DNA from: Siphonodentalium dalli
Lineage: Eukaryota; Mollusca; Scaphopoda; Gadilida; Siphonodentaliidae
Reading direction: 5' to 3'
DNA: 64,000 nt
Assembly: GCA_032622095.1 (NCBI GenBank)
Contig: CP136062.1
Location: 4,774,001 to 4,838,000 of the forward strand
Shown: positions 1,257 to 41,320 of the stretch, in pieces
How positions within the stretch are numbered: the stretch's first letter is position 1
Layout: each line of letters starts with the position of its first letter
Made by a program: the position numbers and the translations under genes
Notes under the pieces: generated by a model
Databases searched by the model: none
The model's input: the letters and a program-made list of their open reading frames with translations, nothing else
What the model was told of the DNA's origin: nothing

Positions 1257-1686
1257 AGTCCTGGAGTTGCCACCCAGGGCCGGGTTCGTCGGTCCAGAGG
1301 TTGTGTTACATTCCAAAGAGTAATGTGAGCGCTTCGAAGGGTTTTGACATAAAAGAGCATAATTTACTAATGCTTCGTTTTTTTCTCGGATTCTAATGGC
1401 AATGTGGTAAGCGAAGGGCGTTCCCCTTCGCTGGACACACTGAACTTAGAATAATACCGAACAACAATCGAGGCATTAGTAAATTGTGTTACTTTACCAG
1501 TGCATTTTTTAACAAAAGCGAAAGTCTTCGGTTAGATTCGAAGACGATAGCGTTGTAAAATATACTTGTAGAAATTACCTTTCAGTGAAATATGTTATGA
1601 GATAATGGTAAAATGGTACATATACAAATCTGCCCGAGTCAAATCGGTGTTTTTATTCGTAGAAATATGTTTTTTGACAGAAAAGA
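1257..1686 (+). repeat. Polinton left terminal inverted repeat
   Basis: Reads closely as the reverse complement of about 15958-16376. It carries two short hairpins: AGCGAAGGG with CCCTTCGCT at 1410-1432, and a GTCTTCG/CGAAGAC pair around 1527-1545 that is perfect in the right TIR. It also contains a single copy of the 30-bp unit (about 1391-1420) that is amplified further inside. Similarity ends near the TTTTTTGACAGAAAAG stretch around 1686. Confidence 0.85.
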
Positions 1687-2327: not shown

Positions 2328-2348
2328 TGGGTGGCCCTGAAAATGACC
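2328..2348 (-). terminator. Histone-type 3' stem-loop, cassette A
   Basis: On the minus strand the sequence reads GGTCATTTTCAGGGCC followed by ACCCA, starting 13 nt after the stop codon of the 2362-2793 ORF. Metazoan replication-dependent histone mRNAs end in a 6-bp stem with a UUUC-type loop followed by ACCCA, which this resembles. Compared with copies B-D the stem is slightly decayed (one mismatch, one G-U pair), and the downstream AAAGATACGCTCT motif is missing. Confidence 0.65.
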
Positions 2349-2361
2349 GTTTTTCGCCAGA

Positions 2362-2793
2362 TCACAACAACAGTGGATAAAGGGTCCTTAGGAACTCAAA
2401 TCCATCCTTTTGGTCCAACTCCCGAAAGACAAGTGAACCCTCGATGAGAGATGGAAATATACCTTTCGGTATACTCACATTCCTCACTTGGGATACGCTG
2501 AATCTGTATTGCTTTTTCTCTTTCCAAAACACGAGTTTTCTCTGCAGAAGGGTTGCCGCCACCGTGAGTAAGATATCTGTTGTCCCAAGCCATTCGATAT
2601 GTTCTATATCCTGTCCACTGAACAGTGTAGGATTGCGAGCCCAAGTTGCACAGACAAAAGTGAATAGTTCAAAGAACTTTTCACCTGTACCATACACTGC
2701 CCAGGAAAGGGCCTCACACACTGCAATGTCCCTCGGGGCCGATAAATGGATGGCTCTGACATAAGATCCAAGATCAGTAACAGCGTATTCCAT
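2362..2793 (-). CDS. Cassette A: small protein, possibly OTU-like
   Basis: An intact 143-residue ORF starting at the ATG at 2793. The region EALSWAVYGT (about residues 28-37) followed later by EWLGTTD and VAATLLQRKLVFW (about 67-90) has the order and spacing of an OTU-type cysteine protease fold: an AL.YALYG-like helix, then WGT and a hydrophobic strand. The usual Asp-Gly-x-Cys nucleophile motif is not in canonical position and no convincing catalytic His is visible near the C terminus, so it may be inactive or another fold. Cassette C contains a similar AATLLQ segment, suggesting the two are paralogues. It is flanked by the shared upstream element (2828-2925) and a histone-type stem-loop. 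It is intact while the capsid genes beside it are broken. The OTU assignment is an inference. Confidence 0.6.
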   Translation of the reverse strand: MEYAVTDLGSYVRAIHLSAPRDIAVCEALSWAVYGTGEKFFELFTFVCATWARNPTLFSGQDIEHIEWLGTTDILLTVAATLLQRKLVFWKEKKQYRFSVSQVRNVSIPKGIFPSLIEGSLVFRELDQKDGFEFLRTLYPLLL

Positions 2794-2827: not shown

Positions 2828-2925
2828 TTATATGTAAAACGCGCGGAGGTCGTTGGCTACGTCATTGTGTTTATCTACCAATTTTCCGGAACGTCATTTC
2901 AAATGTGTTTCTTTTTTTGTTGAAT
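2828..2925 (-). promoter_or_regulatory. Shared upstream element, cassette A copy
   Basis: Read on the minus strand toward the ATG at 2793: GAAACACATTTGAAATGACG, then GGAAAATTGGTAGATAAACA, CAATGACGTAG, a CCGCGCG core and a TATA-like ACATATAAC about 40 bp before the start codon. The same order of blocks is found upstream of cassettes B, C and D. The TGACG half-site is CRE/ATF-like. It is called a promoter because of its conservation and position; activity is inferred. Confidence 0.65.
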
Positions 2926-3208: not shown

Positions 3209-3714
3209 TTACAAGTTTGTGAAATACATGTTTTTGAGTAATGTTTCTGATTCGTTTCGTGCGGGCTCATAGTTTCTATGAAACCAATCCAATACTTTTC
3301 TATCATTTTTGAAGTAGTCACCATCAAAATTCATTTCAACTAATACTTTTATACCATATCCGCTTTTCAAGAAATGTAAAGCAAATATGCAGTAGATACC
3401 ACACACGTTTGTACCGTGATGTTGAAACCGCCCAACGTTTATTTTACATCGTTCGAATTTCTTTGAATAAATGATTTGATATATGTATCAATAACTGGTA
3501 TCCCAAACGAATCGAAATATGTTGCAATGTTTCCATTGAAGAAAATTGCAACCCAGTGTTCTCCTGGTTTTTTCTGACGTATGTGTATTTACTATGTATG
3601 CTTTTACATGATGAGGTTTCTCGTGTGGTACTGATCTTTTGCACACACCACACCATACAATGAACAGAGGTAGGGTGGTTTGTCTAGTATTTGCTGAAGT
3701 TCGCTTGTGTTCAT
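3209..3714 (-). pseudogene. PRO: Polinton cysteine protease (adenain/C48-like), frameshifted
   Basis: Maturation protease that in Polintons and adenoviruses cleaves capsid precursors. The start is taken at the ATG at 3714. The N-terminal frame runs to about 3605 and stops. A second frame (about 3563-3438) holds GEHWVAIF and YFDSFG, which carry the catalytic His and the acidic residue. A third frame (3406-3209, open up to the terminal stop) holds NVCGIYC with the nucleophilic Cys, followed by FALHFLKSG. All three catalytic positions survive but lie in different frames, separated by at least two frameshifts, so no active enzyme can be made. The length, about 168 codons in total, is slightly short for the family. 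It is the last core gene on the left, as is common in Polintons. Confidence 0.8.
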
Positions 3715-3724
3715 CTTCGTAGTA

Positions 3725-4060
3725 TTATTTTACTTTTTCACACCACAAGTCAACAAAAACCGAATTAAATTGGTTACAGTTTGCATAAACAACTCCCTTT
3801 ATATCTTTCCAAAGTTTGAATGCCTCAAATTTCCCTTGTGGTGTAAATGATTCTATTTATGGATACAATTGTTCCATAACTCGGTAGATGTTCAATTTAA
3901 GTAGTGCTATATCAATGAACATATCTACCCATTGTATAGGTGGTGTCCAAAGACAAAGTAAATGTCGTGTCTGACTTGGATGATCTATTTTACATCCTTC
4001 ACAATTGAGTGTCACTTCTTTTGAAATTTGCAGTCTCAATTTTGCGTTGATCACTGAAGC
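3725..4060 (-). pseudogene. Conserved Polinton Cys/His-rich small protein
   Basis: The frame contains LNCEGCKIDHPSQTRHLLCL, a C-x2-C...H...H...C pattern that I associate with a small protein found between capsid and protease genes in many animal Polintons. Its function is unknown; the residues could bind zinc. An in-frame TAA at about 3857 splits it, after which the same frame continues with a lysine- and tryptophan-rich segment and ends at 3725, just before the protease ATG at 3714. Its N terminus is lost: the frame runs straight in from a major capsid protein C-terminal remnant. Confidence 0.6.
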
Positions 4061-4853
4061 TAGAGCTGCAACAAACTGAAGCTCTAACCTTATGTTACCA
4101 GTTTGTATAGGATGCAAATGTCCTTCCTCTGCTCATTGTTCAGGTGTGAGGTCGTAACCCCAGAAACAATAACCATAATACTAATTTTCCGTCTGCCTGA
4201 CCAATTAAAGAGAATTTTGGATTTGCTCTAATGAGAAGAATTCTTATCTCAATTCCATTTGGTAAGTATTTCTCTTGTAGAAATATATCTGTGTGTAAAC
4301 GACCACACAATTATACCGTTTTACTACCTGCTATGATTGCTTGGCGAGATTTCAATCCATCATTACGACCAGCTTTAGTGTTTTCGGTGAACTGTTTAGC
4401 GGTGTCTGGATACCACATTTCTAGTGCGGCAAGTTGATTTTCTTTACATTCACCAGAATAGGCCAAGAGATTTTCCATATAGACTCGATAAAGATAGGTA
4501 TCTCCGTTTGCCGTTACAAGTTTGTTATTTAGGTTCATATCGATACTACTGAACATGCTATGGAAAAGGTTTTTAATAGGCGCAATTTCATCAGTACCAT
4601 CAACCAAGTTTGTTCCATCTGCTTTTGTGATTTTGAATTTCAGGTACAAATATGATTGATTCACATATGTCCATTTTTCAGTTTGAGGCGGAATTACCAA
4701 TTCTACCGGTGCGGAATTATTCAAAGAGCTAATTGGGTGATGTTCTATCCATTGTGATTCCAACATCGTTGTCATTGTTGGTGGAACATCAGAAGCATCA
4801 ACTCTAACTTGCTGCATTAGCATGATCCATTTTGCATCATCATGATTAATCAA
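4061..4853 (-). pseudogene. MCP: Polinton major capsid protein (double jelly-roll), internally deleted
   Basis: The first 180 codons (4853-4311) are open and resemble the N-terminal jelly-roll of the Polinton major capsid family (often auto-named F54H12.2-like): PPQTEKWTYV, SYLYLKFKI, LFHSMFSSIDMNLNNKL and DTYLYRVYMENLL are characteristic. After a frame break near 4311 another frame carries GRLHTDIFLQEKYLPNG (about 4305-4200). Then most of the second jelly-roll is missing and the C-terminal GYDLTPEQ and IQTGNIRLELQF signatures appear at about 4155-4065. The family is usually 400-500 residues, so more than 150 residues are gone. The ATG at 4853 overlaps the end of the upstream small gene (4846), the usual tight packing. 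It cannot form capsids. Confidence 0.75.
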
Positions 4854-5224
4854 ATATATCGAGAGATCGTTTTGATTTCTTTACATGCGCTTTAATGGAC
4901 TTACTTCTAACTTGTTTGCAAGAAGAATGATTTTTCAAAGGCCGCGATGATCTATTTATGCATTTGGTGTTGATATTTTCTTTATTGTTTCCTTTCCAAA
5001 AGATTTCAATGCTTCTTTGCCTTGTTTCAAAAATACTTTTTTGGACTTTTACCATGATGAATGATATCTTCGACTGCAGCAAGTCCATGCTTGAATACTT
5101 GTTGTTTAGCAATCTGACCAATAGGTTTTAGAAACGGTACTACTGTTCTCATTGCAGATTCGAATAGTGAACCAATTCCATTTCCATACTGTCTAGGTAC
5201 GCCTCTATACACGGGGATCATCAT
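4846..5224 (-). pseudogene. Small Polinton virion-type protein (pVI/core-like), frameshifted
   Basis: The start at 5224 encodes MMIPVYRGVPRQYGNGIGSL and continues through an amphipathic FLKPIGQIAKQQVFKHGLAAVEDI helix region before a frameshift near 5027. The +1 frame continues with an Arg/Lys/Ser-rich tail ending at 4846. The combination of a glycine-rich N terminus, an amphipathic helix and a basic tail is typical of the minor core or membrane-lytic proteins encoded next to Polinton capsid genes, compared in the literature with adenovirus pVI or pX. Exact homology is not certain. Its ATG overlaps the penton stop (5221-5223), and its end overlaps the MCP start. Confidence 0.6.
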
Positions 5225-6021
5225 AAATACAAATTACTTCGGCGTCGGAAATGCAACTTTACCATAGTCTTTCCACCAACAAACTGAATTGCTTTGTCAG
5301 TATCACCAGATATATATACACATTTATGATATCAAAGCTAGACTTTGATACTGGTACATAATGTAAGTTTTTGAATTCATGCTTAATATGTTGACCATTA
5401 TGTATTCTTTAACCCTCGAATGGTGTCTCTCGTAATATCGGTGCCTCAACTTAACCAACAATTGTATAATCAGCGATATCAGAATAAACAAACAACTGAT
5501 TATGCTCCGCATTTAAATCAACTCCATATGGAATTGTTATCGAATAAGTAGCAAATGTAGCAGTATCTGATTCTGTTCTGTAACCAAGGTTATCCAAAAG
5601 AGCTCTGGGGAGTACAAGACCTACTTTGGTGTAACTATTGGTTGAAATTTTAACTCGTTGTTGTGCTTTGGAATATCCGAATTCGAATTACAGTTGCTTA
5701 CTGTACTATCAATTACACTTTGAATTGTATCTGTCAAATGTGCTGTACCAGAATATGCTCCTTCTGGTATTGTTAATTCTATACCATTTTCTGGTTTTGA
5801 AATTACTACATCACTTATTGGTAACTTGTGCAGGTATTGTAAAATTCTTGGAACAGAAGTTTTTTATGTTATTATGCAAGCATCTCCAATAATGTTGTAT
5901 GTTTCCGATGGTACAATTAGGTCAACCATTGCAACTTCACAAAGCTCTTTATCAATATGTATGTATTTTGGTAATTTCACTGTGAGTTGGCTGGGTAAAG
6001 TGACATTGAACTATCACTCAT
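5221..6021 (-). pseudogene. Polinton penton/minor capsid protein (single jelly-roll), broken
   Basis: The ATG at 6021 opens a frame that stops after about 14 codons. Another frame then gives LTVKLPKYIHIDKELCEVAM, the usual early strand of Polinton penton proteins. Pieces of the protein recur in different frames down to the C-terminal FVGGKTMVKLHFRRRSNLYL and the TGA at 5221-5223. At least three frame changes and internal stops are visible. In the family this single jelly-roll protein occupies the five-fold vertices. It lies directly upstream of the pVI-like gene, with stop/start overlap. Confidence 0.65.
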
Positions 6022-6193
6022 AAGAGTTATGTAGAATTAATTCATTTTTTCTCAGTATGTTTCAATAATTTCAGTCCAGGTGTTGGTAGAATATAACCTA
6101 GAGAACTACTTAGAAGAATAAGCCACAATTCTTTGTTTGCGCTATGGATACTAATGTGTATAATATATGTAATCATTTTGATATAAATAATAA

Positions 6194-6292
6194 TTATCTG
6201 CGTGTGACTTGGTTCTTAGCAACGTTTTCACCACAGAACTTAAATCGTGATGGTTCATAGAGATTAATTGAATCTGAATGAGATTGGGACAT
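6194..6292 (-). CDS. Short ORF remnant between integrase and penton
   Basis: A 32-codon frame beginning MSQSHSDSINLYEPSRF on the minus strand, ending in TAA at 6194-6196. It lies between the integrase terminus (6306) and the penton start (6021). The remaining 170 bp has no open frame. It may be the broken N terminus of a virion protein or a leftover of the penton 5' end. Function unknown. Confidence 0.25.
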   Translation of the reverse strand: MSQSHSDSINLYEPSRFKFCGENVAKNQVTRR

Positions 6293-6305
6293 GATAAATT
6301 ATGTT

Positions 6306-7007
6306 TTATACTAAATTTGAAGCTGGGATCCAACTGTCAAACTGTTTTGGGTATCCAAGCCAATGAACTTAAATTTCTTTTACTGTTTTAACACCCACTC
6401 TCCTCGTTCTTTTATCAATAACTGATTCTATTTCATACAACTTACTGTCTTTTATATGTTGGATTTCATGTTTGTAGAATTATCCATCAATCTCTTCACC
6501 ATCAAGATCAGAAACTTTGTATGTGATTGGATTAGTTTTACAAATTTTATCAATTTTGAAAATTTCACGAGTCCAGTTTGGTAAATAACCCTTTTCAAAT
6601 GTTCTTTTGGTTTTGTTGATACGAACCAAGTCACCCAATTTCAGTGTATATTTTCCTTTTTTATTTCCTGTTCCATATAGATTTTTGGAAATTTCAGCTT
6701 CAGTTTTCAAAGTAACTTTCGACGGTTTCGATTTTATTCTACGGTGATAGCTATTGTTGTAAGAATCGACTAGGGGCTGTAAAACATCGATATATCTTGA
6801 AGTTTTACTGTGTGTGAAATATTTCCACATACGAGTTTTTAAAGTTCTTTGAAATCTCTCAACAATACTGGATTTAGTCTGTGGATTCTCAGTTGTGAAG
6901 AAATGAAGATCAGCTAAATCTGCCTGCCATTGAATATCAATTCCAGCTACAACAGTCTTTCTACGTTGGAATTTTCGAATTATTGGTTTGTGTAAAGTAT
7001 ATGTCGA
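6306..7007 (-). pseudogene. INT: Polinton integrase (retroviral type) with deleted core, chromodomain tail
   Basis: Immediately after an in-frame TAG (7007-7009 region) the same frame continues with YTLHKPIIRKF and then GIDIQWQADLADL, which holds the first catalytic Asp. It passes directly to HFFTTENPQTKSSIVERF, which holds the catalytic Glu in IVERF, and then the C-terminal SYHRRIK and LGDLVRI regions. The stretch between DLADL and HFFTTEN, which should be roughly 80-100 residues and contain the second catalytic Asp, is missing without a frame change. After a stop near 6480 the same region continues as a chromodomain ending HWLGYPKQFDSWIPASNLV at 6306. The enzyme would insert the element by DDE chemistry but is dead here. 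Confidence 0.8.
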
Positions 7008-7882
7008 CTAGCCTTGCAACCATTTCTTCACATCTATGAGTTTTATTTTTTTATTTAACTTTTTCGCTTCATAAAAAAGTTTCTTTACACCGCCATAACT
7101 TCCAACTTTCTTCGAATTATAGATAATTTTAGATAACTGTTCATCTAGTATGGATCCCATTGTGTTTGTTTCTGTTTTAATACCCTTTGGTGTCAACCTA
7201 TCTGCTATTTTAGTTTTTGAATGTCTTGCTTTTATACCTTTCATTTGTGTGAATCGATGAGAATCAAATCGTTTTGGTTTTATGCTTTGTACCTGAGTTT
7301 CAAAATTATCATCTGAATCATCTTTCAAATGTTTTTTAATCCAAAGCAAACGGTTTCTGTTCCCTACAAAATCGTGAGGTACATTTTGTTCGCATAATCC
7401 TTGTGAAAAGGTTTGCCAACCTGTTGGTTCGAAACCTTGTCTTTGTCGTACAATATCATTGAGGAGATCAACAATATTTGATCCTCTAATAACTTTTTCA
7501 CCATATGTTAATTGTCCATTTTCATCAAACTCCATTTGCGGATGTTTTGAAATCAGTTGTAAAAGTTGTTCAGCTTTTGTTCTCATCTTTAGCGGAATAC
7601 TTTCCAGCACATCCCTATGATGATTAAATGGTTGTTCTGTTTTCGGGGTTGAAATAGCTCTAACTGATTTTTGAGAAGTTTTCAATTTGTGCAAAGTTGT
7701 ACCATATAATTGAACCTTCTCAGATTCTGACAAATTTTTATCAGAAACTTAATTCAATTCTCTGCTTAGTTTGAAAAATTCGTAATTTCAGGATTAAGTG
7801 GTAATTTCAGATTAGTTAGACTCATTCTCCATTTTTTAATGTCATCCAACATTTTGAAGGGAACAGCGACCATTTTCTTCAT
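7008..7882 (-). pseudogene. Conserved Polinton protein continuous with integrase N-terminal domain
   Basis: The likely start is ATG 7882 (MKKMVAVPFKMLDDIKKW); a frame change and stops lie near 7770-7735, then 7733-7008 is open for 241 codons. Residues about 60-120 of this ORF (GSNIVDLLNDIVRQRQGFEP, GWQTFSQGL, VPHDFVGN) match a hypothetical protein commonly seen in animal Polintons, and the preceding basic and Ser-rich part is typical of it too. From about residue 195 (LSKIIYNSKKVGSYGGVKKL to VKKWLQG) the frame reads as the integrase N-terminal helical domain. The TAG at the end is an in-frame stop before the integrase core. The two genes are normally separate, so this looks like a fusion or loss of the boundary. 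Confidence 0.6.
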
Positions 7883-7884
7883 GT

Positions 7885-8226
7885 CTAACCACGAAGTATT
7901 CCAGCGACTGGTTTACCAAGCAACGGTGCTAGCATAAGAAGTGGTAAAAAACCTACTTTCTGGTTTAAAATTTGTTTTTTTCGTTTCAAAGATGTTGATT
8001 TACTTGCAAGTTCTCTGAGGTGTCTACACCTCGGACGAAGTTTGCGCTTCTGAGCTTCTGTTAGTTTTACATTGCCTTTTAAAATATTTTTACAGTATTC
8101 TGACATGCAATCAATCACTCTCTTTGGGGCATCTTTTATCATTTTGTTTCGAAAATGAGTTGGTGCCTGATTCTTAGCCATTACAAAACTACCATATTTT
8201 TTAATCAGTGGAGTTTTTTTCGCCAT
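7885..8226 (-). CDS. Polinton small basic protein with hydrophobic C terminus
   Basis: An intact 113-residue ORF. It is lysine-rich with the segment CMSEYCKNILKGNVKLTEAQ, then KRKLRPRCRHLRELA and KSTSLKRKKQILNQK, followed by a hydrophobic GFLPLLMLAPLLGKPVAGIL tail (about residues 90-111). This architecture is a recurrent Polinton protein of unknown role. The gene to its right (8263-8829) has the same plan, so the pair look paralogous. It ends 3 bp before the next start at 7882. A virion-core or membrane-interacting function is plausible but not shown. Confidence 0.6.
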   Translation of the reverse strand: MAKKTPLIKKYGSFVMAKNQAPTHFRNKMIKDAPKRVIDCMSEYCKNILKGNVKLTEAQKRKLRPRCRHLRELASKSTSLKRKKQILNQKVGFLPLLMLAPLLGKPVAGILRG

Positions 8227-8262
8227 ATTTACTCTTCAACAGTTGAATGTCAAATTACTTAT

Positions 8263-8829
8263 TTACTTATTACTTTTACGTTTATTATAATTACGATCAA
8301 ATGCCATCAAAGCTAATTTTGATGGGTTTGAAAGATTCATAATTGTTGAGTATCGTTGAACCAACGGGTAATGTTCTGCTTCTTGAACTGATGGAATTGG
8401 TTGCGGACCATTATCGTTGAGTGGTTGAAATCTAGCAAATGTAGAATTTAATCCAGTAGTATTTACTCTAGCTGGAGTAGCTCGCTGTGAAATTGTATAA
8501 TTTACTCTAACTGGACTAGCTCGCTGTGCAATTGTAGAATTTACTCTAGTAGCATTTACTCTATTTGGTCTAACTCGTGCAATTGATTTATTTTCTTTTT
8601 GTCTGAGAAGACTTCTGATCAAAACTCCACCGAGAAATCCATCTCCACCAGTTTTTAAAAGTATTTTCTTTTTTGAATCGATATGAGTTGTACAGTCAGC
8701 TATTTTCTTCAGCTCTTTTTTGTGTTTTTGTAGAAATGTTCATGTCTGCTTTGGAAGCTTTAAGTGATCATCAATAATTAATTTAGCTATAGTCAAAAAT
8801 ACACTCAACACTGCTTCATGCGACTCCAT
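8263..8829 (-). pseudogene. Paralogous small basic protein fused to a repeat-rich tail, one frameshift
   Basis: ATG at 8829. The first 29 codons read MESHEAVLSVFLTIAKLIID and so on to a stop; the neighbouring frame then carries FLQKHKKELKKIADCTTHID, KKKILLKTGGDGFLGGVL and continues into the open 8622-8263 ORF. That ORF contains about three imperfect 15-residue repeats of the type AQRASPVRVNYTI (about residues 15-60), with period-like DNA repeats. The first part is the same basic-then-glycine/hydrophobic plan as the 7885-8226 gene. The repeat-rich tail is unlike usual Polinton proteins and may be a local expansion. Function unknown. Confidence 0.5.
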
Positions 8830-8860
8830 GATTGGAAATGAAAATATTATGTTGATAGAC

Positions 8861-9464
8861 TTATCTTAATACCGATGAATATATTACCGCACCTCGGTCG
8901 TCATTTGTGAGCCAGATATGGAAAATATCAGTTCTCAGTCTCAACGATTTATCCGTTTTCGGGTGAAGATCGAGTAGTAAATAACCATGATTGGTTGAAG
9001 TTGCATCATCATATGCTTTGAAATAGTACTTTGAAATAGTACAAGTGTAATGTGCATTCAAACTCAAAGTTCTAATCGCTTTAGATTTCTGAAACATGTT
9101 TTGGGTTATTTAAATAACAGACCTATTTCTGTGATGTCCTTTTCTTGTAAACCAAAACATAATTTTTTCTTCATCTTTATCACCTAACATGTCGTCAAAA
9201 ACGACGAGGTGCGGTAAGTCTGTGTCATCGACAAGTTTATTGTCATCATCCGGTATTCCATTTATAAATTAAATATTGTGAAATTCTTGCATCTGACTAT
9301 AGATATTTTGCCATTCTTTGTAACACCAAACGATTTTTATGGAACAGGTTTGAACAAGTCATCTTTATATTCGATAATTTCTTAACAAATTATGTTTTAC
9401 CACAACCACTTGGTCCCGATATGAAAATGTTACAGGGATGTTTGAACAACAATGATTCGTCCAT
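8861..9464 (-). pseudogene. ATP: Polinton packaging ATPase (FtsK/HerA-like), frameshifted
   Basis: ATG at 9464. Walker A reads CNIFISGPSGCGKT (about 9427-9388). The Walker B region reads PHLVVFDDMLGDKDEE (about 9215-9165) in another frame. The C-terminal ORF (9097-8861) carries AIRTLSLNAHYT and DATSTNHGYLLLDLHPKTDK, typical of Polinton genome-packaging ATPases. The stretch between Walker A and B contains frameshifts and stops and is shorter than usual. It would pump DNA into the capsid; it cannot be made intact here. It sits between the unknown gene at 9510 and the small basic protein pair. Confidence 0.75.
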
Positions 9465-9509
9465 GTTTACCCTGAGACAGATCATGTAAGACTGATTAGG
9501 ATTGTTCGG

Positions 9510-9860
9510 AATGAACCTTTTTTATTTTTAATGAAGAATCACCATAACTCTAGATTATTCCAAATGTCCATATGAGTTCATTATCTAAGTCTGAATTAGG
9601 TCTAGTGGTTTTTACAATATAATCCAGACACTTTTTCTTCAAATAACTTTTCACCAGTGAAAATTGCACATGGTTCTCGGAGAATAATGTATCCATATAT
9701 TCTCGTCACCTCTTCGAATTTCAAAGTTTTTTCATGGAGAATCCTGTCTTGATATTCAGCAAAACGAGTAAAATTAATTTCAACGAATTTCGTTTATTTT
9801 GTTTTTAGGAACACCATGAAATATTCAATAATCTGAAAACAGTTGATCCAATATATCCAT
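9510..9860 (-). pseudogene. Unrecognised Polinton gene, broken
   Basis: A minus-strand frame from about 9860, with a frame change near 9830 and a stop near 9800, contains FTRFAEYQDRILHEKTLKFE followed by IYGYIILREPCAIFTGEKLF (about 9775-9650). After another shift it continues TRPNSDLDNELIWTFGII to about 9555. Codon use and the lack of stops over these stretches look like a decayed gene rather than noise. I do not recognise the family. It lies between the F-box-like ORF and the ATPase start at 9464. Confidence 0.4.
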
Positions 9861-9878
9861 TAAGAAATCAGTTTCAAA

Positions 9879-10106
9879 TTATGATCTCTCAATCAAACAT
9901 CTCAATCGACTCTGCCCCTCAGAGAAATGTCCGTTCAGCAAAGTCTGCACTATAATATTACTTTCCTTCAAAAACCAAGTTTGTTTAAGTTCTCGTTTGA
10001 TTTCTTGATAAATTTTTGACATTTCGATCAAGTTATTATAAATTTTCAAAAGCATCTCTGCTGGTAACACATCAAGTCCACCCATAAGGAATTGTGTTGT
10101 ATTCAC
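9879..10106 (-). CDS. Small ORF with F-box-like motif overlapping polymerase end
   Basis: An intact 75-residue ORF whose ATG (10106) lies 35 bp inside the polymerase 3' end. Residues 12-25 read DVLPAEMLLKIYNN, similar to the LP.E.L..I..L signature of F-box or related BC-box motifs that recruit ubiquitin ligases; the remainder is helical and charged and does not extend the match. Short F-box-like proteins occur in many large DNA viruses. The short motif could be coincidence. Confidence 0.4.
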   Translation of the reverse strand: MNTTQFLMGGLDVLPAEMLLKIYNNLIEMSKIYQEIKRELKQTWFLKESNIIVQTLLNGHFSEGQSRLRCLIERS

Positions 10107-13100
10107 TCACAACAAGTCGTTTGGTGTACACAGATCGGAATGTTTTTGTTTGCTCTTCACTAAATACTTCTCGGTTCTTTGTGCGTTTAATTCTGCATGG
10201 ATAGTTTATGACACGTTGAAAGTTTGACCGGTCATTAACACATTCAACCATTGAATGAAAATGTATTTGCTGTTTAGTTTTATAATCCCGAGTGATACCC
10301 TTGACCTTACATACATATTTTATGACACCATCTTTCACGTACGGATATCCATAATTTTTCGGTCCTAACCCTACAAATTTCATGATTTAACATCCGGATG
10401 CTCATCAGTCCATTTACCAAGGTAGCTGTCTTCGGTTTTGATATTTTCTTTTTCTGGATCGAAAATATACATACAGCTATCGGTGTCGAAATACAACACC
10501 CTATCTTGGAGTTTTTCTAAAACATCATACAACTCCAAGCGTGCATATGCTGTGACAGATGATGCGACAACTACATTGGCAGATGGATGTGGTTCTATAA
10601 TATCGGTTTTATTTTCATAGCTGAATAATATGAATTTATCATGTTCAAGAATTTCAACTACTTTGACGGTGATATTTTTATCAGTTAGTAGTTCAAAATA
10701 TCTGGATGGTTCTGAGATATATTCAGTTTTAGTAAGAATATTATTTTGTGCATTTTCCCCCATATGCAATTTATCATTAATTTTGCGCACTGGCAGTGTC
10801 CTGGGGTTTTCTCGATTTTTTCTTTTTCAAGTTTTATACCTTCAAACTGATAATAATCTTTAATGTATTTATCTTTATCTTCTTCACTTTTAACAGAATT
10901 TGTATATCCACTTGCTTCTTGCTTAATTTTGAGGTATTTATCAATGTAGTCCCTGTATACTTTGTCCGACCACTCAGTCCAATGCCAAACTTGATGACCA
11001 AGAGGGTACTCCCTATATTTATTCACACTAGGATACAAACTGCATATATCGATATATTTTATTTCCTGTTTAGATGATGGTTTTATTTCATGATATAATT
11101 TTACTGCCAAGAGGGTACTCCCTATATGTATTCACACTAGGATACAAACTGCATATATCAATATATTTTATTTCCTGTTTAGATGTTGGTTCTATTTCAT
11201 GATATACTTTTAGAGCATTAGTCCTACCACCAAATATTGTTTCCCTTGGTTTAATTGGCTCTTGATGCAAATATAATTGATCCATAGTTTGTTCTAAATT
11301 TTTTCTGCTTTACATTTATTGTCTAGGTCATGATCCCAGATGCATATTAATATGCATCCCAAGCTTTTGATTTCAGTTTCCGTTTTTATTGTTTTTTTCA
11401 TACAATTCATGCATTGTTATATTACTGTATGGGTCACACCAATACATTTCATACAATGTGTTTGATTTTGCATGATAACCATCAACATAATGTGTGCCTA
11501 TTGTATCTTCACCACCATTTAAAACATGTTTTATGTTTATATTTTGTTATGTAGCAATTTACTGTAGCCATCGAATTGCTTTCATTGAAAATTTACGCGC
11601 TTGTGGATATCCAGCAATTGAAATTATACCTAGAGAATTCTCTGGTAATGAATGTTTTCTCCATGCAAGATTACAGGTTTGAGCTAATGTTATTGCTTCC
11701 CGGAATGGATCAATTTGATCATTTTCCATTACACATAGTCTGAATTTATCACATCCACGTCTTAAAATGTCTACATCTGATTTACAATACTTTTGAATTT
11801 CTTTTTGGATATCAAAAATAGCCTTACCCCTAGCTTCGTACCATTTCAGAAATGGATCCTTATTTTCCTCACATGATATCAGGTTTATAGTATTTATTGT
11901 CTAGATATGGTCCTACGTAATTCTGAAAGTCCTGTGTATTTGCCCAATGTGGAAAATAACCTTTAGCCATTTCTTCAAGTTGGAATGTTTTTGGAAATTA
12001 GATAATGCCATTGGGATGAAACACAATGAATCGATTACTCTAACACCATTACATTGTAAACTCAGTATTTTGATACCATTCATAATAACATTAGGTTTTT
12101 ATTTTCCATTGTTCACCTAGTAATGTAAGAGGAACCGACTATCGTAACCTCTTGCATTGTGAGCAATACATGTTGTGCCTTTATGGTCGTTGGTGTAAAA
12201 CAACCATTTACAAAATCTTTCCAATACATTTTCACCTTTAAAAACATATTCTCTATTTGACAATACAGATTCACATGAATTGCATATTTCATCAATGGGT
12301 TTACATATACAATTTTCACAAGCAGTTTGCGCAACACAAACATTGGGTATATGAACACCAATATCTTGTTGACATTCAAAATCCAAAAAATAAGAATGGT
12401 ACCTTTACTTCTTTCTGTGTTTCTTTCTTTTCGTACTGTTGAATATGACATCTGTGGTCTGATGGAACGATTTCCTTACAGTATTTGCACTTCTTTGTTC
12501 CCGGACAGATATGTCTTTTCTCCTTTCGTGTGACAATATCAACCCCGCATTTCTGGAATTTGTGTATCATATCACAAATAGTTTTGTCTTGTTTTGGTAA
12601 TTTTTTTCAAATGATTGTCGAGACATCGTTTACTTCTAAAAGTCCTCTAACATTTGGTGCAGTGTATCCCTCGTTCAAAGGGACATATCTGTCCCTCCAA
12701 ACACATACACTTGTATGAACATAAATGATCACCTCTGCTATTCGTACCGACATCAAAGTGCTCACAGTAATAATGACATCCAAGGAATCCTGTGACAGTT
12801 GTGATCACATCGTAGAGGTTGTCATTGAAATATAAATGGATAACTTTACTTTCTTTCCCAACTGGTGGTGGTTGAAAAGTAAAGCCTTCGTCAGAAAATT
12901 CATTATGTATTTTTATAACATACTCCGGATATAGTTGTTCCTGAATAAGTTTGTATTCCTCAACCCCGCAACTGGTGTCGTGTGATATACCCACTTTATC
13001 CAACACTGACTTTGCAGATTCCCGTTATGGAGCTCTTGCTGGTCTCATAATCCGTTTCCATTGTTGCTTTCATTCAACGGTATCGTTTTTGTCAACATTA

Positions 13101-13675
13101 CACATACCAAAAACGACAGCCCTCGCAAAACACATGTTATCTTCTGCGTTCTGAATCAGAAGAATACTTTTCTTTACTGTTTTCATTTGATTTTTTTCAC
13201 CGAATGCTCCATAATGTAAGGTATGTCTTGCGGTCCCTGTAGGCATGCGCGAGACAGTGATATCAAATGTCATCTGTCCGTCATGAATTTTGAATTATTT
13301 GTCCGATTGTGCAACTTTCTCTATGTTGTCAAGCAATAATTCACCCGTCAGTTCTTTTGCTTCAGTGAACGGGACGTGAATCCCTAGATCTAGCCCTAGA
13401 TGAAAGATGGAAATTCTCATGTGATCTTTTGGTCCTGCATTACACTCATCTTTCAAACTGTTCACCAGATCTATGAAAATTCTGTGAACAGTCTGAAATG
13501 GTTGATTAAATTCTTGAAATGTGACTTTGTATTTCTTTGATGTTGTTTTACATTTCCTCGAGTATTTATCGGTCAGATTTGTTATAGTATAATATTTACA
13601 ATCGTCATCCAGTCGCACTCTCTTTCTATTATCTCGTTCGCTTTCGCTATCTGAATATGGCACAAGGCGCTTCAT
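10072..13675 (-). pseudogene. POLB: Polinton protein-primed DNA polymerase B
   Basis: The start at 13675 (MKRLVPYSDSESE) opens 126 codons and a single in-frame TAA (13295) before the same frame continues to 13070. Further open segments hold the Cys-rich N-terminal region (13006-12647, 12570-12376), exonuclease motif I in FDFECQQDIGVH (about 12388), ExoII in AHNARGYDSRFLLHY (about 12160-12117) and ExoIII in YCKSDVDILRRGC (about 11790-11750). Polymerase motif A reads YIDICSLYPSVN (duplicated), motif B KLMINCIWGK (about 10765) and motif C YFDTDSCMYI (about 10490-10460). The C terminus reads GLGPKNYGYPY to KRLVVSEYNTIPYGWT (10383-10072). Multiple frameshifts, stops and a duplication show it is inactive. 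Total length, about 1,200 codons, matches the family. It is transcribed away from a palindromic promoter at 13678-13795. Confidence 0.88.
10998..11216. repeat. 109-bp tandem duplication over polymerase motif A
   Basis: The block starting CCAAGAGGGTACTCCC at 10998 recurs at 11107, and the two copies match over about 105 bp with a few substitutions. Each copy encodes KYIDICSLYPSVN on the minus strand. As 109 is not divisible by three, the duplication also shifts the frame. It must post-date the loss of selection on polymerase. Confidence 0.85.
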
Positions 13676-13677
13676 CT

Positions 13678-13795
13678 TGAAATGACGACGTGATGAAACA
13701 TCGCGTCGCGTTTATGCTCTGACACGGGCATGCGCAGTCATCGCCCGTGTCAGAGCGTAACAGCGACGCGATTTTTCATCACGTCGTCATTTCAC
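13678..13795. promoter_or_regulatory. Palindromic bidirectional promoter between polymerase and 13827 ORF
   Basis: An inverted repeat with arms of about 52 bp (13678-13729 and 13744-13795), starting TGAAATGACGACGTGATGAA and ending CTCTGACACGGGC, with a loop of about 14 bp. It lies exactly between the polymerase start (13675, minus) and the 58-codon plus-strand ORF (13827). Each arm carries TGACG and ACGTGAT motifs near the gene-proximal end. The same palindromic head-to-head plan occurs at 14418-14584. Regulatory function is inferred from position and symmetry. Confidence 0.6.
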
Positions 13796-13826
13796 TGACG
13801 ACTAAATAACGCACCGAACGCTGACC

Positions 13827-14003: not shown

Positions 14004-14027
14004 TTACTTGTTACATTTTTTTAGCAA

Positions 14028-14074
14028 TTTCAGAGCGTATCTTTTGAAAAATTTGGGTGGCCCTGAAAAGGGCC
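14028..14074 (-). terminator. Histone-type 3' stem-loop plus downstream motif, cassette B
   Basis: The minus strand reads GGCCCTTTTCAGGGCC (14074-14059), a perfect 6-bp stem with a TTTC loop, followed by ACCCA, the normal cleavage flank in histone mRNAs. About 12 nt further is CAAAAGATACGCTCT, shared with cassettes C and D and purine-rich at its start like a U7-binding histone downstream element. The stem starts 2 nt after the TAA of the cassette B ORF. The loop composition makes the signal strand-specific for the minus strand. Confidence 0.8.
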
Positions 14075-14076
14075 GT

Positions 14077-14409
14077 TTAAATTGTTGGTGAGTCAATAAA
14101 ATTCAGACAAATCAGGATAAAGTCCACACTTGTTGTATGTGGGCCAAATTCAGACAAATCTGGATATAATGCTCCCTCCTTATACGCGGGTTTCCACTCT
14201 GGAGTTTCCACATACACCTTGGGAGGACAAGGTCTCCGTCTTTGCAGGAATTCTTGAACTCCAGCTCTAATTTCTAACTTATGTCTCTCCGAATCTCTAA
14301 CATTCTTCTGCTAATGCTTTAATCGAGCATCGGCAGAGAATTTTAGCAAAACTTTCTCTTTTAGTTTAGAGACATTTTGAAGATAAAAAAACGCTACTCT
14401 GCGCTCCAT
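14077..14409 (-). pseudogene. Cassette B: 110-codon basic protein with one in-frame stop
   Basis: A minus-strand frame from ATG 14409 to TAA 14077-14079, interrupted only by a TAG at 14311-14313 (codon 33). It starts MERRVAFFYLQNVSKLKEK, is rich in Lys/Arg/Glu in its first 60 codons (RDSERHKLEIRAGVQEFLQR) and ends with an acidic/hydrophobic segment. A coiled or helical, nucleic-acid-binding type composition is visible but no family is recognised. It is driven by the left arm of the palindromic promoter at 14418-14584 and followed by a histone-type stem-loop. The single stop may be a recent lesion. Confidence 0.55.
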
Positions 14410-14414
14410 ATTAT

Positions 14415-14584
14415 ATGAAACGCGCGGACGTCGCCGACGACGTCATTGCATTTTTTCAACAATTTTCCCCGAACGTCAAATCAAGTGTGTTTCTTTTTGA
14501 CAAAAAGAAACACACTTGGTTTGACGTTCGGGGAAATTTGTTAAAACACGCAATGACGTCGTTAGCGGCGCCCGCGCGTTTTCA
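14415..14584. promoter_or_regulatory. Palindromic divergent promoter of cassettes B and C
   Basis: Two copies of the shared upstream element head to head: 14418-14499 serves cassette B (minus), 14503-14584 serves cassette C (plus). Outward from the centre each arm reads AAAAAGAAACACACTTG, TTGACGTTCGGGGAAA, CGCAATGACGTCGT, a GCGCGCG core, and then a TATA-like TTTCATATAAT (B side) or an A-rich stretch (C side). The arms match at most positions. The ORF that seems to start inside it (14415) is a by-product of the palindrome. Confidence 0.7.
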
Positions 14585-14627
14585 AAAAAAAATAAACATA
14601 CATCCACCATTCTTCATTCATACTGAA

Positions 14628-15050
14628 ATGGATTACCGAGATCTGTATCGGAGTTATTTGGAGGAGGGGTTGATGGTGAGATGTGTTTTTGGAGATGAAA
14701 CACAGATGATCTGGAAGGCTTTGAGTCTAGCAACACCGGGTACTGTAGATAACTTCTTTGATATATACAGATATACGTTATGCTGATATCACAGAGGTTG
14801 GTTATTCGGATTACCACCACGGTTGTTTGGATACACCAGGTTGCTGGGATCGTCAAGACTGACGGTGCGACTCGCTGCTACCTTGCTGCAGCAGTCTATT
14901 ATAATCTTCTCAGGGCACATGGTCTACGAGTTCTTACCGCTCTGGGGGATACAGACAGGCCAGCTATGCAATTGTGCCATTTGGTTGCGACGTTCCCAAG
15001 ATAACTTCCAGGTTTATTCAAACCCAAATACACAGTGCGGTTTCTTTTGA
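14628..15050 (+). pseudogene. Cassette C: small protein with one probable frameshift
   Basis: ATG at 14628 (MDYRDLYRSYLEEG) opens 52 codons to a TGA at 14784. An overlapping frame continues to the TGA at 15048-15050 and carries SRLTVRLAATLLQQSIIIFS (about 14853-14912). The first frame contains GDETQMIWKALSLATPGT and the second AATLLQ plus a hydrophobic strand; this is the same order as cassette A (EALSWAVYGT then VAATLLQRKLVFW), suggesting paralogues with an OTU-like plan, one frameshifted. The Cys nucleophile position is again not canonical. It is driven by the right arm of the palindromic promoter and ends at a histone-type stem-loop. Confidence 0.5.
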
Positions 15051-15063
15051 AACCATCCAAAAC

Positions 15064-15106
15064 GGCCCTTTTCAGGGCCTCACAAATTTGTCAAAAGATA
15101 CGCTCT
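15064..15106 (+). terminator. Histone-type 3' stem-loop plus downstream motif, cassette C
   Basis: The plus strand reads GGCCCTTTTCAGGGCC (15064-15079), a perfect stem with TTTC loop, 13 nt after the stop codon at 15050. It is preceded by CCAAAAC and followed by TCACAAATTTG and then TCAAAAGATACGCTCT (15091-15106). This is the only copy on the plus strand, and its loop orientation switches with the gene orientation, which is strong evidence that it acts on the transcript. Confidence 0.8.
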
Positions 15107-15236: not shown

Positions 15237-15306
15237 TCCCTAACAATAAAAAACCCACTACCACCCTTCATATCTATAATACGATCATCATGTAGCATAA
15301 TAATAC

Positions 15307-15349
15307 AGAGCGTATCTTTCGTGAATTTGAAGTGGCCCTGAAAAGGACC
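15307..15349 (-). terminator. Histone-type 3' stem-loop plus downstream motif, cassette D
   Basis: The minus strand reads GGTCCTTTTCAGGGCC (15349-15334), with one G-U pair in the stem and a TTTC loop, 19 nt after the stop of the 15369-15803 ORF. It is followed by ACTTCAAATTCA and then CGAAAGATACGCTCT (15321-15307), the motif shared with cassettes B and C. Confidence 0.75.
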
Positions 15350-15368: not shown

Positions 15369-15803
15369 TCATTTCTTTTGTTTCTTCATCACTGCTAAAT
15401 CTTTCCCGAATGATCCAAATGTTGATCGCTTCGTAGGTTGTTTCTGGAAACCATGTACCTCAATTGGTATGTCGATCGTGTGAGGTTTCAAGTTGATTGT
15501 ACATTCACCCGGTTTTTGTGTTAACTGCTTTCGCAAATCCTTCATTTCCTGACAAATATTCCGTAACAACTTTGTCTGTTCTTCCCCTTGTGAACTGTTG
15601 ATAACTTGGTATATAACAGGTTGAATCATTTGTTGTGTTTTCACCGGCGGTATATACACTGGTTGTTGATACGTTCGCGGAAACATCGTTGGTACATGTT
15701 GCTGTTCTAACCGTGGTGTCACATTTCCCGCATACATTTGCGTTGCAGGAACAGGATCGTACTGTACATCAATAGTCTTGAGAAATTCCGTTACTGGATC
15801 CAT
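15369..15803 (-). CDS. Cassette D: intact 144-residue protein, unknown
   Basis: ATG at 15803 (MDPVTEFLKTIDVQYDPVP). The middle (residues about 30-65) is rich in Gln, Pro and Tyr (PTMFPRTYQQPVYIPPVKTQ). A helical charged stretch follows (EEQTKLLRNICQEMKDLRKQ, about 73-92), suitable for a short coiled coil. The C terminus is basic and ends DLAVMKKQKK, a possible nuclear localisation signal. No family is recognised; a virion-accessory or DNA-associated protein is one guess. The upstream shared element (15862-15957) and downstream histone-type hairpin frame it. It is intact despite decay of the core genes. Confidence 0.6.
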   Translation of the reverse strand: MDPVTEFLKTIDVQYDPVPATQMYAGNVTPRLEQQHVPTMFPRTYQQPVYIPPVKTQQMIQPVIYQVINSSQGEEQTKLLRNICQEMKDLRKQLTQKPGECTINLKPHTIDIPIEVHGFQKQPTKRSTFGSFGKDLAVMKKQKK

Positions 15804-15861: not shown

Positions 15862-15957
15862 GATCAACTATATGAGATGCGCGGGCGTCGCTGACTACTC
15901 CATTGTGTATTTTACCAATTTTCCACGAAAGTCAAATCAGGTGTGTTTCTTTTTTTT
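15862..15957 (-). promoter_or_regulatory. Shared upstream element, cassette D copy
   Basis: The minus strand reads AAGAAACACACCTGATTTGA, GTGGAAAATTGGTAAAATAC, ACAATGGAGTAGTC, GCGACGCCCGCGC and then a TATA-like TCATATAG about 65 bp upstream of the ATG at 15803. The order matches the copies at cassettes A, B and C; the CRE-like site is degraded here (CAATGGAG). It directly abuts the right TIR. Confidence 0.65.
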
Positions 15958-16376
15958 GTCAAAAACATCATATTTCTGCGAATAAAACACCGATTTGACT
16001 CGGGAAGATTTTTATATGTACCATTTTACCATTATCTCATAACATATTTCACTGAAAGGTAATTTCTACGAGTACATTTTACAACGCTATCGTCTTCGAA
16101 TCTATTCGAAGACTTTCGCTTTGGTTAAAAAATGCACTGGTAAAGTGGCACAATTTACTAATGCCTCGATTTTTGTTCGGTATTATTCTAAGTTCAGTGT
16201 ATCCAGCGAAGGGGAACGCCCTTCGCTTACCACACTGCCATTAGAATCCGAGATAAAATCGAAGCATTAGTAAATTATGCTCTTTTCTGTCAAAACCCTT
16301 CGAAGCGCTCACCTTACTCTTTGGGATGTAACACAACCTCTGGACCGACGAACCCGGCCTTGGGCAGCAACTCTGG
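15958..16376 (-). repeat. Polinton right terminal inverted repeat
   Basis: Inverted match to about 1257-1686. It carries the perfect GTCTTCGAAT/ATTCGAAGAC hairpin (16092-16113) and the AGCGAAGGG/CCCTTCGCT hairpin (about 16205-16228), but only one 30-bp unit. The outermost bases (CAACTCTGG at 16368-16376) differ from the left tip, so the terminus may be slightly eroded. Confidence 0.85.
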
Positions 16377-16930
16377 CCCACCCCCTCTGGGTCGACCCAG
16401 GTTTTTTCTGGCCCATCCCAGCTCTGGATTAATACGGTTCCATGTGATAGCAAAGAAAAGTAATATTAATTTTGTAACTCCGTAATGCCAATGTGAAATC
16501 TATTGATACAGGTTAAGCGAAGTTTTCCCGTATCATATATCACCCCGCTGGGAGAAATGAATTTTCGCCCATTCACCTTTTACTTTCCAGAAACTAAGAC
16601 CTCCGTTGTTTCCTGAGAGGAGTCCTGATTAGGCTAAAACGACAGCGCCAGAAAACACCGACTACGTTCGTGAGACCATGGAAAGGGTCGCGGTCTATAA
16701 GAGATCATGACCGATACAAGACAAAGCAGTCGTATGAATATAGAGACACATACACTTCGCGTGGAAGCAGATACACAGACTACTGATAACACAATCTATC
16801 ACACCTCCAAAATGACAGCCACCCGCCAAATAGAGAAGAAACAAGAACAAATTAAATGTTTTCGGACCACTCCAAATTAAAGGCATAACATGAGGGTGAC
16901 GGAAATGGCATATTGACTATTTTGTGCAAC
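16377..16930. other. Host flank right of the Polinton
   Basis: 16377-16432 resembles the left flank 1229-1257 in direct orientation (CCACCCCCTCT, then TTTTTTCTGGCCCA and CCCAG), so the target was a repeated sequence or the target duplication is longer than usual. Nothing recognisable follows up to 16930. Confidence 0.4.
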
Positions 16931-27639: not shown

Positions 27640-29861
27640 TTGAAAGGCCTAGTTATGCAAAGATTAAAATCCAAGATGGCCACGACACCCACGTTTTTTT
27701 TGCCAAATGACCCCAAAAAAAGAATCCTTCCTATTTACATGTCATTGTTAACATCCTGCACAATTTTTATAATGATCCGACAAAAGATACGACCTGTAGA
27801 GATACGACCTGTAGCCTGTGTCAAAGGATTTAGTTGTGTAAAGAGTAAAATACAAGATGGCTGCTGGCGGCCAGGTTTTTTGGTTGAATTCAAAATAATT
27901 CGTTTCCCATCTACATATAATTGTTAACATCCATGACAAATCTCATGATGATCGGATCAAAGATAAGACTTGTAGCCCTTGCCAAAGAATTTGGTCATGC
28001 AAAGAGTAAAATCCAAGATTGCTGCTGGCGGCCATGTTGTTGGCCGAACGCCCCCAACATTACTTCTTTCCCATCTACGTGTCAATTGTAACATCCATCA
28101 CACATTTAATAATGATCCGACAAAAGATACGACCTGTAGCCCGTGCTAATGGATTGAATTTTGAACAACCCCAAAATGACTCGTTCCCATCTACATTGTA
28201 CATGTCAATAGCCATGACAAATATCATAATATTCTGACCAAAGGTACGACCAAGAGCCTGTGCCGAAGGATTTAGTCAAGCAAAGAGTAAAACCCAAGAT
28301 CACTGCTGACGGCCATGTATTTTGACCGAATGACCACAAAATGATTCGTTCCCATCTACATGTCATTGATAACATCAATGAAAAATTTCATGAAGATCCG
28401 ACCAAAGATACGACCTGTACCCCGCGGCAAAGGATTTGCAAAAGAGAAAAATCAAAGATGCTCATGACGGCCATGTTTTTTGGCCGAACTACCCCAAAAT
28501 GACTCGCTCCCATCTGCCTGTCATTATTAACATCCATGACAAATTTCATGATTATCAGACGAACAGTACGACCTGTAGACCGCTCCAATCGATTTAATTT
28601 TGAAATCAAAGATGGCTGCCAGCGGGCATGTTTTTAGGCCGAATGACCCCAAAATGACTCGTTCCCATCTACATATAAGTTTCAACATTCATGACAAATT
28701 TCATAATGATCTAACCAAAGTAAGGACCTGTAGCCTGTGCCAAAGGATTTAGTCATGCATACAGTAAAATCCAAGATGGCTGCTGGTGGCCATCTTTTTT
28801 GGCCGAATGACCCCAAAAGGACTCGTTCCCATCTACATGTCATTGTTAACATCCATTACAAATTTCATGAAGATCCGACCAAAGCTACGACCTGTAGCCC
28901 ACGCCAAAGTATTTAGTCATGCAAAGAGTAAAATCAAAGAATTTAAGATGGCTGCTGGCGGCCATGTTTTTTGGCCAAACAACCACAAAATGACTCATTC
29001 GCATCTACATGTCATTATTAACATCCATGACAAATGTCATGATTATCCGAAACAAAGCTACGACCTGTAGCCCGCGCCAAATGATTTAGTCATGCAAAGA
29101 GTAAAATCAAAGATGGCTGCTGGTGGCCATCTTTGTTGGCCAAACGACCACAACATGACTCATTCCCATCTACATATCATTATTAACATCCATGACAAAT
29201 GTCATGATGATCAGACAAACAGTACGACCTGTAGACCGCGCTAATTGATTTAATTTTGAAATCCAAGATGGCCGTCAGCGGCCATGTTTTTTGGCCGAAT
29301 GACCCCAAAATAACTCGTTCCCATCTACATGTCATTGTTAACATCCATCACAAATTTCAATAAGATCCGACCAAAGGTACGACCTGTAACCCGCACCAAA
29401 AGATTTAGTCATACAAAGAGTAAAATCAAACATGGCTGCTGGCGGCCATGATTTTTGGCTGAACGACCCCAAAATGACTCGTTTCATATCTACATGTTAA
29501 TTTTAACATTAATAACAAATTTCATAAAAATCATACCAAAGGTACGACCTGTAACCCGCACCAAAAGATTTAGTCATACAAAGAGTAAAATCAAACATGG
29601 CTGCTGGCGGCCTTGTTTTTTGGCCAAACGACCACAAAATGACTCATTCGCATCTACATGTCATTATTAACATACACGACAAATGTCATGATTATCCGAC
29701 CAAAGCTACGACCTGTAGCCCGCACCAAAGGATTGAGTCATGCAAAGAGTAAAATCAAAGATGGCTGCTGGCGGCCATGTTTGTTGGCCAAACGACCACA
29801 AAATGACTCATTCCCAACTACATGTCATTATTAACATCCATGACAAATGTCATGATGAGGC
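27640..29861 (+). repeat. 164-bp satellite array, block 1
   Basis: About 13 units of about 164 bp. Landmarks per unit: GCAAAGAGTAAAATCCAAGA, TGGCTGCTGGCGGCCATG, GACCCCAAAATGACTCG, TTCCCATCTACATGTCA, GACAAATTTCATGATGATC and ACGACCTGTAGCCCG. Divergence between units is substantial. Many short ORFs cross units; none is conserved as a frame. Confidence 0.9.
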
Positions 29862-40432: not shown

Positions 40433-41320
40433 CAGACAAACAGTACGACCTGTAGACCGCGCCAATTGATTTAATTTTGAAATCAAAGATGGCTGCCAGC
40501 GGCCATGTTTTTTGGCCAAATTACCCCAAAAGGACTCGTTCCCATTTACATGTCAAGGTCAACAGCCATGACAAATTTCATGAAGATCGGACCAAAGCTA
40601 CGACCTGTAGCCCACGCCAAAGGATTTAGTCATGCAAAGAGTAAAATCCAAGATGGCTACTGGTGGCCATGTTTTTTGGCTGAACGACCCCAAAAGGACT
40701 CGTTCCCATCTACATGTCATTGTTAAAATTTATGACAAATTTCATGAAGATCCGACCAAAGCTACGACCTGTAGCCCGCGCCAAAGGATTTAGTCATGCA
40801 AAGAGTAAAATCCAAGATGGCTACTGGTGGCCATGTTTTTTGGCCTAACGAACCCAAAATAACTCGTTCCCATCTACATGTCAATATTAACATCTATGAC
40901 AAAATTCATGATGATCAGACGAACAGTACAACCTGTAGACCGCGCCAATGGATTTAATTTTTAAATCCAAGATGGCCACCAGCGGCCATGTTTTTTGGCC
41001 GTTTATTCCAAAAGAACTTGTTCCCAACTACATGTCATTGTTAACAACCGTGACAAATTTCATGAAGATCAGACCAAAGGTACGACATGTAGCCCGCGCC
41101 AAAGGATTTAGTCATGCAAAGAGTAACATCCAAGATGGCAGCTGGCGGCCATGTTTTTTATGCCGAACAACCCAAAAATGACTCGTTCCCATCTACATGT
41201 CAATATTAACATCCATGACAAATTTCATGAAGATCAGACTAAAGCCACAACCTTGAAATCCAATATGGCCGCCAAGATGTTTTTCGGTCGAAAGACCCCA
41301 AAATGATTTGTTCCCATCTA
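40433..41320 (+). repeat. 164-bp satellite array, block 3
   Basis: About five and a half units of the same satellite as blocks 1 and 2. The first unit starts mid-phase at GATCAGACAAACAGTACGAC, the phase at which block 1 stopped. Confidence 0.9.

Follow-up and report, generated by a model that had tools for sequence, protein, structure and literature searches.

Four short genes, here called A to D, placed at the two ends of one Polinton-like element, each carry an upstream module of about 87 bp and, 2 to 19 nt after the stop codon, a hairpin in the sense orientation (four of four, one hairpin damaged). Judging from sequence, we consider it likely, at a probability of roughly 0.8, that the element ended the mRNAs of these accessory genes with the host histone 3′-end machinery (SLBP/U7). 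The signals share order, orientation and spacing, are confined to genes A to D except for one further hairpin at 15039, and have been preserved although the reading frames and most of the flanks have lost all DNA similarity. All positions refer to the window, the whole 64-kb stretch of DNA that was analysed.

A histone-type 3′-end signal on gene B

The first-pass annotation described, on the minus strand, a perfect hairpin followed by ACCCA only 2 nt past the TAA of a Polinton-borne ORF, and both statements proved correct. Stem-loop B (14059..14074, -) has a perfect 6-bp stem and a UUUC loop (GGCCCU UUUC AGGGCC) with a fold of -11.4 kcal/mol (z -2.75), and it starts 2 nt after the final TAA of gene B at 14079-14077. 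The Rfam family Histone3 (RF00032) is matched over all 46 positions by the minus strand from 14079 to 14034 at 38.0 bits (E 1.5e-7; gathering score 34), the sole gathering-level Rfam match in the 64-kb window. Read downward from 14079, the minus strand runs UAAAC-GGCCCU-UUUC-AGGGCC-ACCCA-AAUUUUUCA-AAAGAUACGCUCUG. The exact 16-mer of the hairpin appears among the human stem-loop sequences given in PMC7807067.

Human histone pre-mRNA is mainly cut after a CA, 5 nt past the stem (PMC6303110), and the 5′ end of U7 base-pairs with the HDE, mutation of whose purine core (AAAGAG in mouse) nearly stops processing (PMC7026596). A purine-led element had also been noted about 12 nt downstream of hairpin B; it is present as the HDE-like 13-mer AAAGATACGCTCT (14032..14044, -), at a distance of 14 nt from the stem, and its core reads AAAGA(U). 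The description of the element gene ahead of the hairpin needs one correction. Gene B (14077..14409, -) is a 111-codon frame, counting the final stop and a start codon that was chosen, and it carries one in-frame stop, so it is dead in the window's copy.

Three further cassettes

A single hairpin, that of cassette B, had been reported. What follows gene B, a Polinton-like, non-histone gene, is a genuine 3′-end signal of the histone type, and the signal recurs on three further genes (one copy decayed), giving four cassettes in all. Gene C (14628..15050, +) is frame-shifted, and its frame 14787-15047 ends in a TGA 13 nt before stem-loop C (15064..15079, +), which Histone3 matches at 28.1 bits (E 7.9e-4; match span 15059-15104) and which is followed by the HDE-like element AAAGATACGCTCT at 15094..15106 (+). 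Gene D (15369..15803, -) is an uninterrupted ORF of 144 aa whose TGA lies 19 nt before stem-loop D (15334..15349, -), a stem with one G.U pair and a Histone3 match of 25.7 bits (E 0.0062; match span 15354-15309); its HDE-like element, again AAAGATACGCTCT, is at 15307..15319 (-). The matches of C and D are both under the gathering score. Gene A (2362..2793, -), an uninterrupted ORF of 143 aa, ends in a TGA 13 nt before stem-loop A (2333..2348, -), which has decayed. Found by a pattern search with 2 mismatches, stem-loop A has five of six pairs standard, with one non-standard and one G.U pair; it keeps the flank ACCCA, has no HDE and gave no Rfam match at E <= 5. At that threshold, the Histone3 matches in the 64 kb are those of B, C and D only.

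All pairs of the 6-bp stem with its 4-nt UUUC loop are standard in three of the four hairpins. The stop-to-stem distance is 13 nt in A, 2 nt in B, 13 nt in C and 19 nt in D, and 14 nt lie between stem and HDE in each of B, C and D, the three of the four cassettes that hold the identical 13-mer, which A lacks. Past the stem, the bases are ACCCA in A and B, UCACA in C and ACUUCA in D; A, B and C keep the CA 5 nt past the stem, and in D it lies one base further on.

Upstream module and hairpin co-occur in all four cases. The modules lie at 2829..2918 (-) for A, 14412..14498 (-) for B, 14502..14588 (+) for C and 15869..15956 (-) for D. Those of B and C together form a palindrome, one arm each (88.6% over 88 bp), which is why genes B and C are divergent. 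When the upstream stretches of A, C and D were compared with the window (E <= 0.001), each matched the four cassette sites and no other place. TGACG words occur twice in each of modules A, B and C and not in D, and a TATA-like stretch lies upstream of A, B and D. The module may be a promoter.

No relative of genes A and D was found at E <= 0.001 in a large protein set, and gene A had no solved-structure match at E <= 1. At E <= 10, Pfam families matched neither A nor the pieces of B and C, and D drew four names, all sub-threshold; no histone family matched the scanned pieces of A to D, which for B lie beyond the short part that precedes the in-frame stop. Two pieces of gene C have weak protein similarity to gene A. 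Single-sequence structure models of A and D had a mean pLDDT of 43 and 45 and were set aside. Capture of a whole host histone gene was rejected for the ORFs, as they have no histone similarity; for the 3′ end alone it is possible.

Occurrence of the signals against shuffled sequence

Four hairpins of the form GG....TTTN....CC with 6 pairs lie in the element (B, C, D and the one at 15039), whereas dinucleotide shuffles of it gave 0.03 on average and never more than 1 (500 shuffles). When 5 pairs suffice, the element has five such hairpins, and 300 shuffles averaged 0.20 with at most 3 in any one. The 13-mer AAAGATACGCTCT is found exactly in only three places in the window, each time after a hairpin, and with up to one mismatch there are still 3, against 0.05 expected. 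When two mismatches are allowed the count is 10 against 1.1 expected, the remaining seven being five from one related word of a flanking satellite and the sites at 2802 and 58457.

A looser hairpin scan gave six sites, namely the four cassette hairpins, 15039-15054 (+) and a 5-pair site in a flanking satellite at 28625. Scanning under a different definition (end pairs of any kind and two T in the loop) gave 12 sites, 8 of them not of histone type, and a hairpin site with 3 mismatches lies at 2698, inside gene A. The site at 15039-15054 (+) is a perfect 6-bp hairpin, GGTTTCTTTTGAAACC, followed by ATCCA; it overlaps gene C's stop codon, has 9 nt between its end and stem C, and is possibly an older, diverged histone-type stem-loop.

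Conservation between cassettes

For each of the six ORF pairs, nucleotide identity equals or comes close to that of shuffled sequences; the values for A-C and C-D fall in the upper part of the range of their 20 shuffles. The upstream modules, by pairwise comparison, are 76-88% identical and the 26-nt hairpin regions 77-88%. When the 3′ regions were compared (400 bp, E <= 0.01), only the hairpin with a few adjoining bases and the HDE aligned; the exception is B and C, where a single 47-nt alignment runs through the stem-HDE spacer. Thus the cassettes stayed alike at their outer parts while the intervening sequence diverged.

Hairpins A to D show one one-sided change (a G.U pair, in A and D), one broken pair (in A) and no two-sided change. 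Because no pair has changed on both sides among the four, covariation lends no support, and pairing shuffles do not separate the four hairpins. Support for the hairpins comes instead from their sequence, position and spacing.

The element and its poly(A) signals

The carrier of the four cassettes is a Polinton-like, virus-like mobile element, now decayed, in a genome that the histone-type signals suggest is that of an animal. It resembles Polintons/Mavericks and Polinton-like viruses in its terminal inverted repeats of about 420 bp each (left 1264..1684, right 15952..16373, neither assigned a strand; 397 of 423 aligned positions identical), in the span of about 15.1 kb that they enclose, in its pieces of a viral family B DNA polymerase and in a small basic protein. 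The polymerase pieces lie in a leftward core block (3212..13675, -) with many breaks. Two overlapping stop-free pieces at 10688-11309 match Pfam DNA_pol_B_2 at 29.8 and 32.4 bits (cut-off 25.8), a third piece at 12.5 bits is under the Pfam cut-off, and the piece 10383-10826 matches a PHROG DNA polymerase family at E 4.2e-14; a polymerase piece compared with phage records gave no match. Both DNA_pol_B_2 matches are in or beside a 109-bp tandem duplication, which lies at 10998-11212 within the polymerase gene and has 95% matches.

The small basic, core-like protein (7888-8235, -) has 11 unnamed database relatives at E <= 0.001 among 19 candidates, some of them encoded on contigs longer than 1 Mb. 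A histone-fold family also matches this protein, but below its threshold (17.3 bits, cut-off 21.4). By eye alone, further frames of the element look integrase-, capsid- and protease-like; single pieces of them matched no such family or solved structure.

Reading frames are broken in many places, and the copy in the window is dead; our claim concerns the element while it was active. The same C-rich words stand on both flanks, so no target-site duplication can be read. A nearly identical C-rich stretch (CTCTGGCC(C)ACCCCCTCT) is found on both outer flanks, at 1223-1240 and 16370-16388, so the insertion either fell within a GC-rich repeat or duplicated one. Directly inward of the left terminal repeat is a 30-bp tandem repeat of about 15 copies (1721-2163); at the right end no tandem array scoring at least 300 was listed. 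The host flank has arrays of a 164-bp satellite at 27800-29858, 31749-34301 and 40480-41253, and about 49 copies of a 62-bp satellite at 46244-49321.

Neither strand of the core block (13675 to 3212) holds a GG....TTTN....CC site, and Histone3 has no match in it. AATAAA and ATTAAA hexamers are many on its strand, including an AATAAA (-) at 2998 past the last listed ORF; as the block is AT-rich, a lone hexamer carries little weight. Another palindrome, unrelated to that of modules B and C and 125 bp long (13675-13799; 86% over 118 bp), lies between 13675, where a leftward ORF starts, and an ORF in the opposite direction near 13826; it is unlike the cassette module, and no sense histone hairpin was found just after either adjoining ORF. 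MicroRNA names that fell on the palindromes 13675-13799 and 14466-14534 were under their families' gathering scores and were taken as artefacts of long inverted repeats. In none of the four cassettes is there an AATAAA or ATTAAA between stop and hairpin. Poly(A)-type hexamers do lie downstream of two of them, an AATAAA (+) at 15245, 166 nt past stem C, and an ATTAAA (-) at 14004, 55 nt past stem B, so poly(A) ends are possible for B and C. The next minus-strand signal is about 680 nt off after A, at 1657, and after D it is at 15018, inside gene C.

Discussion

Genes A to D probably formed a regulon, whose unit was a promoter-like module, a short ORF and a 3′ end of the replication-dependent histone type. 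The UUUC stem-loop would be bound by host SLBP and AAAGAUACGCUCU paired by the host U7 snRNP, and CPSF73 would cut about 5 nt past the stem (after ...CA), leaving mRNAs without poly(A). With AAAGA(U) as the HDE core, a sequence close to AGAGCGUAUCUUU is expected in the 5′ region of the host U7 snRNA. The mRNAs of A to D would then be made, exported and translated while SLBP is present, and would decay once DNA synthesis stops. SLBP is present in S phase in most somatic cells, or in the oocyte and early embryo, and it is from the behaviour of SLBP known in other animals that coupling to S phase is suggested here. The block on the polymerase side would have used ordinary poly(A) signals. We lean, with some reserve, towards an element with two classes of mRNA, its replication and capsid genes ending in poly(A) and its terminal accessory genes, under one promoter module, having host histone ends and being expressed only in DNA-replicating cells; going by the literature searched, these would be the first protein-coding mRNAs of histone type described from a mobile element or virus. 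Set against use of the host machinery are a single decayed element, a hairpin in A that lacks one pair and an HDE, and hairpins in C and D that singly fall under the gathering score.

The hexamers past stems B and C bear on how these mRNAs normally ended. Poly(A) may have been the usual end of A to D, with the histone signal a minor or conditional alternative, and downstream poly(A) signals are also found on histone genes of other animals (PMC1924863). We regard this as unlikely: each hairpin closely follows its stop, with no hexamer in between in any cassette, and the next signals on the minus strand are far off after A and inside gene C after D. It is also conceivable that the four cassettes are copies of one, or products of gene conversion, so that the likeness of hairpin and HDE reflects ancestry rather than use. 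That the upstream modules are so alike, that those of B and C are arms of one palindrome, that pieces of C weakly resemble A in protein and that B and C have a stem-HDE spacer in common all fit such an origin. Copies free of selection, however, would not lose DNA similarity in the ORFs and in most of the remaining 3′ sequence and yet retain just the hairpin, the HDE and its 14-nt distance from the stem, and we hold ancestry as the whole explanation to be quite unlikely.

The further strong palindromes in the element, at 13675-13799 and 14466-14534, raise the thought that the hairpins are DNA or RNA signals unrelated to histone processing, such as cruciforms, terminators, or replication or packaging signals. 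A signal of that kind would hardly be expected to have the histone sequence and loop, always in sense to the preceding gene and with an A-rich 5′ flank, nor the CA at or next to the cut site, nor, in three of four cases, a U7-type element at constant spacing, and we find it very improbable. Look-alikes such as the 5-pair satellite site at 28625 and the 3-mismatch site in gene A at 2698 show that similar hairpins can turn up by chance, but four hairpins against 0.03 per shuffled element, together with three exact copies of the HDE where, allowing one mismatch, 0.05 would be expected, leave a chance origin of both signals a negligible probability. Use of the host histone 3′-end machinery by the active element is the reading that we prefer.

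Metazoan replication-dependent histone pre-mRNAs, whose 3′ ends depend on SLBP and HDE/U7 (RF00032), share with the four cassettes the 6-bp stem and UUUC loop with its GG..CC base, the A-rich 5′ flank, ACCCA (in A and B), the CA at or next to the cut site, the purine-led HDE 14 nt downstream (in B, C and D) and the short distance from stop to stem. They differ in that here the ends belong to four non-histone genes of a mobile element and are predicted from sequence signals. The nearest functional parallel in the literature covered is that of iridoviruses, DNA viruses with mRNAs that lack poly(A) and have 3′ hairpins (PMC5923455). Unlike the hairpins described here, those of iridoviruses are tied to TAATG/CATTA motifs, measure 22-56 nt and are not of histone type, and the accessible text of that paper mentions no U7 element.

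Stem-loop patterns searched for in viral contigs had 0 matches with one pattern and 8 with another; the eight were taken as chance, having no ACCCA-type 3′ flank by eye, no AAAGATACG at the loci and no Rfam match at E <= 0.1. Protein-guided scans of the viral contigs (capsid-like, a core-like alignment of 12, integrase-like and a polymerase piece) and a scan of prokaryote genome contigs with the core-like alignment confirmed nothing, and the combined pattern of stem-loop and HDE had 0 matches in viral and prokaryote contigs. As both collections are poor sources of animal Polintons, these negatives say little.

The first-pass annotation had known of no description of such 3′ ends in Polintons. 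For gene context and function this still applies: in the open-access literature, with subscription papers and preprints mostly outside the scope of the search, we found no description of histone-type ends on genes of a Polinton, another mobile element or a virus, nor of several such ends under one promoter-like module in Polinton-like elements. The stem-loops themselves had already been counted, with 6 at the Rfam cut-off among 8,300 genomes of Polinton-like viruses (or virophages), undiscussed in the accessible text of PMC12220804, in which the cryptophyte elements of its title have no histone stem-loops. Unlike our analysis, that text gives a count only, without position, gene, HDE or interpretation. 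If the six matches are real, the histone stem-loop is rare in Polinton-like virus genomes.

Should the preferred reading be true, the hairpin that otherwise ends animal histone mRNAs would have been used by four genes of a mobile element, and an integrated virus could in this way follow S phase or the early embryo. Transcripts of the A to D type would be missed by poly(A)-selected RNA-seq, and the six unexplained histone stem-loops of Polinton-like virus genomes would gain a meaning.
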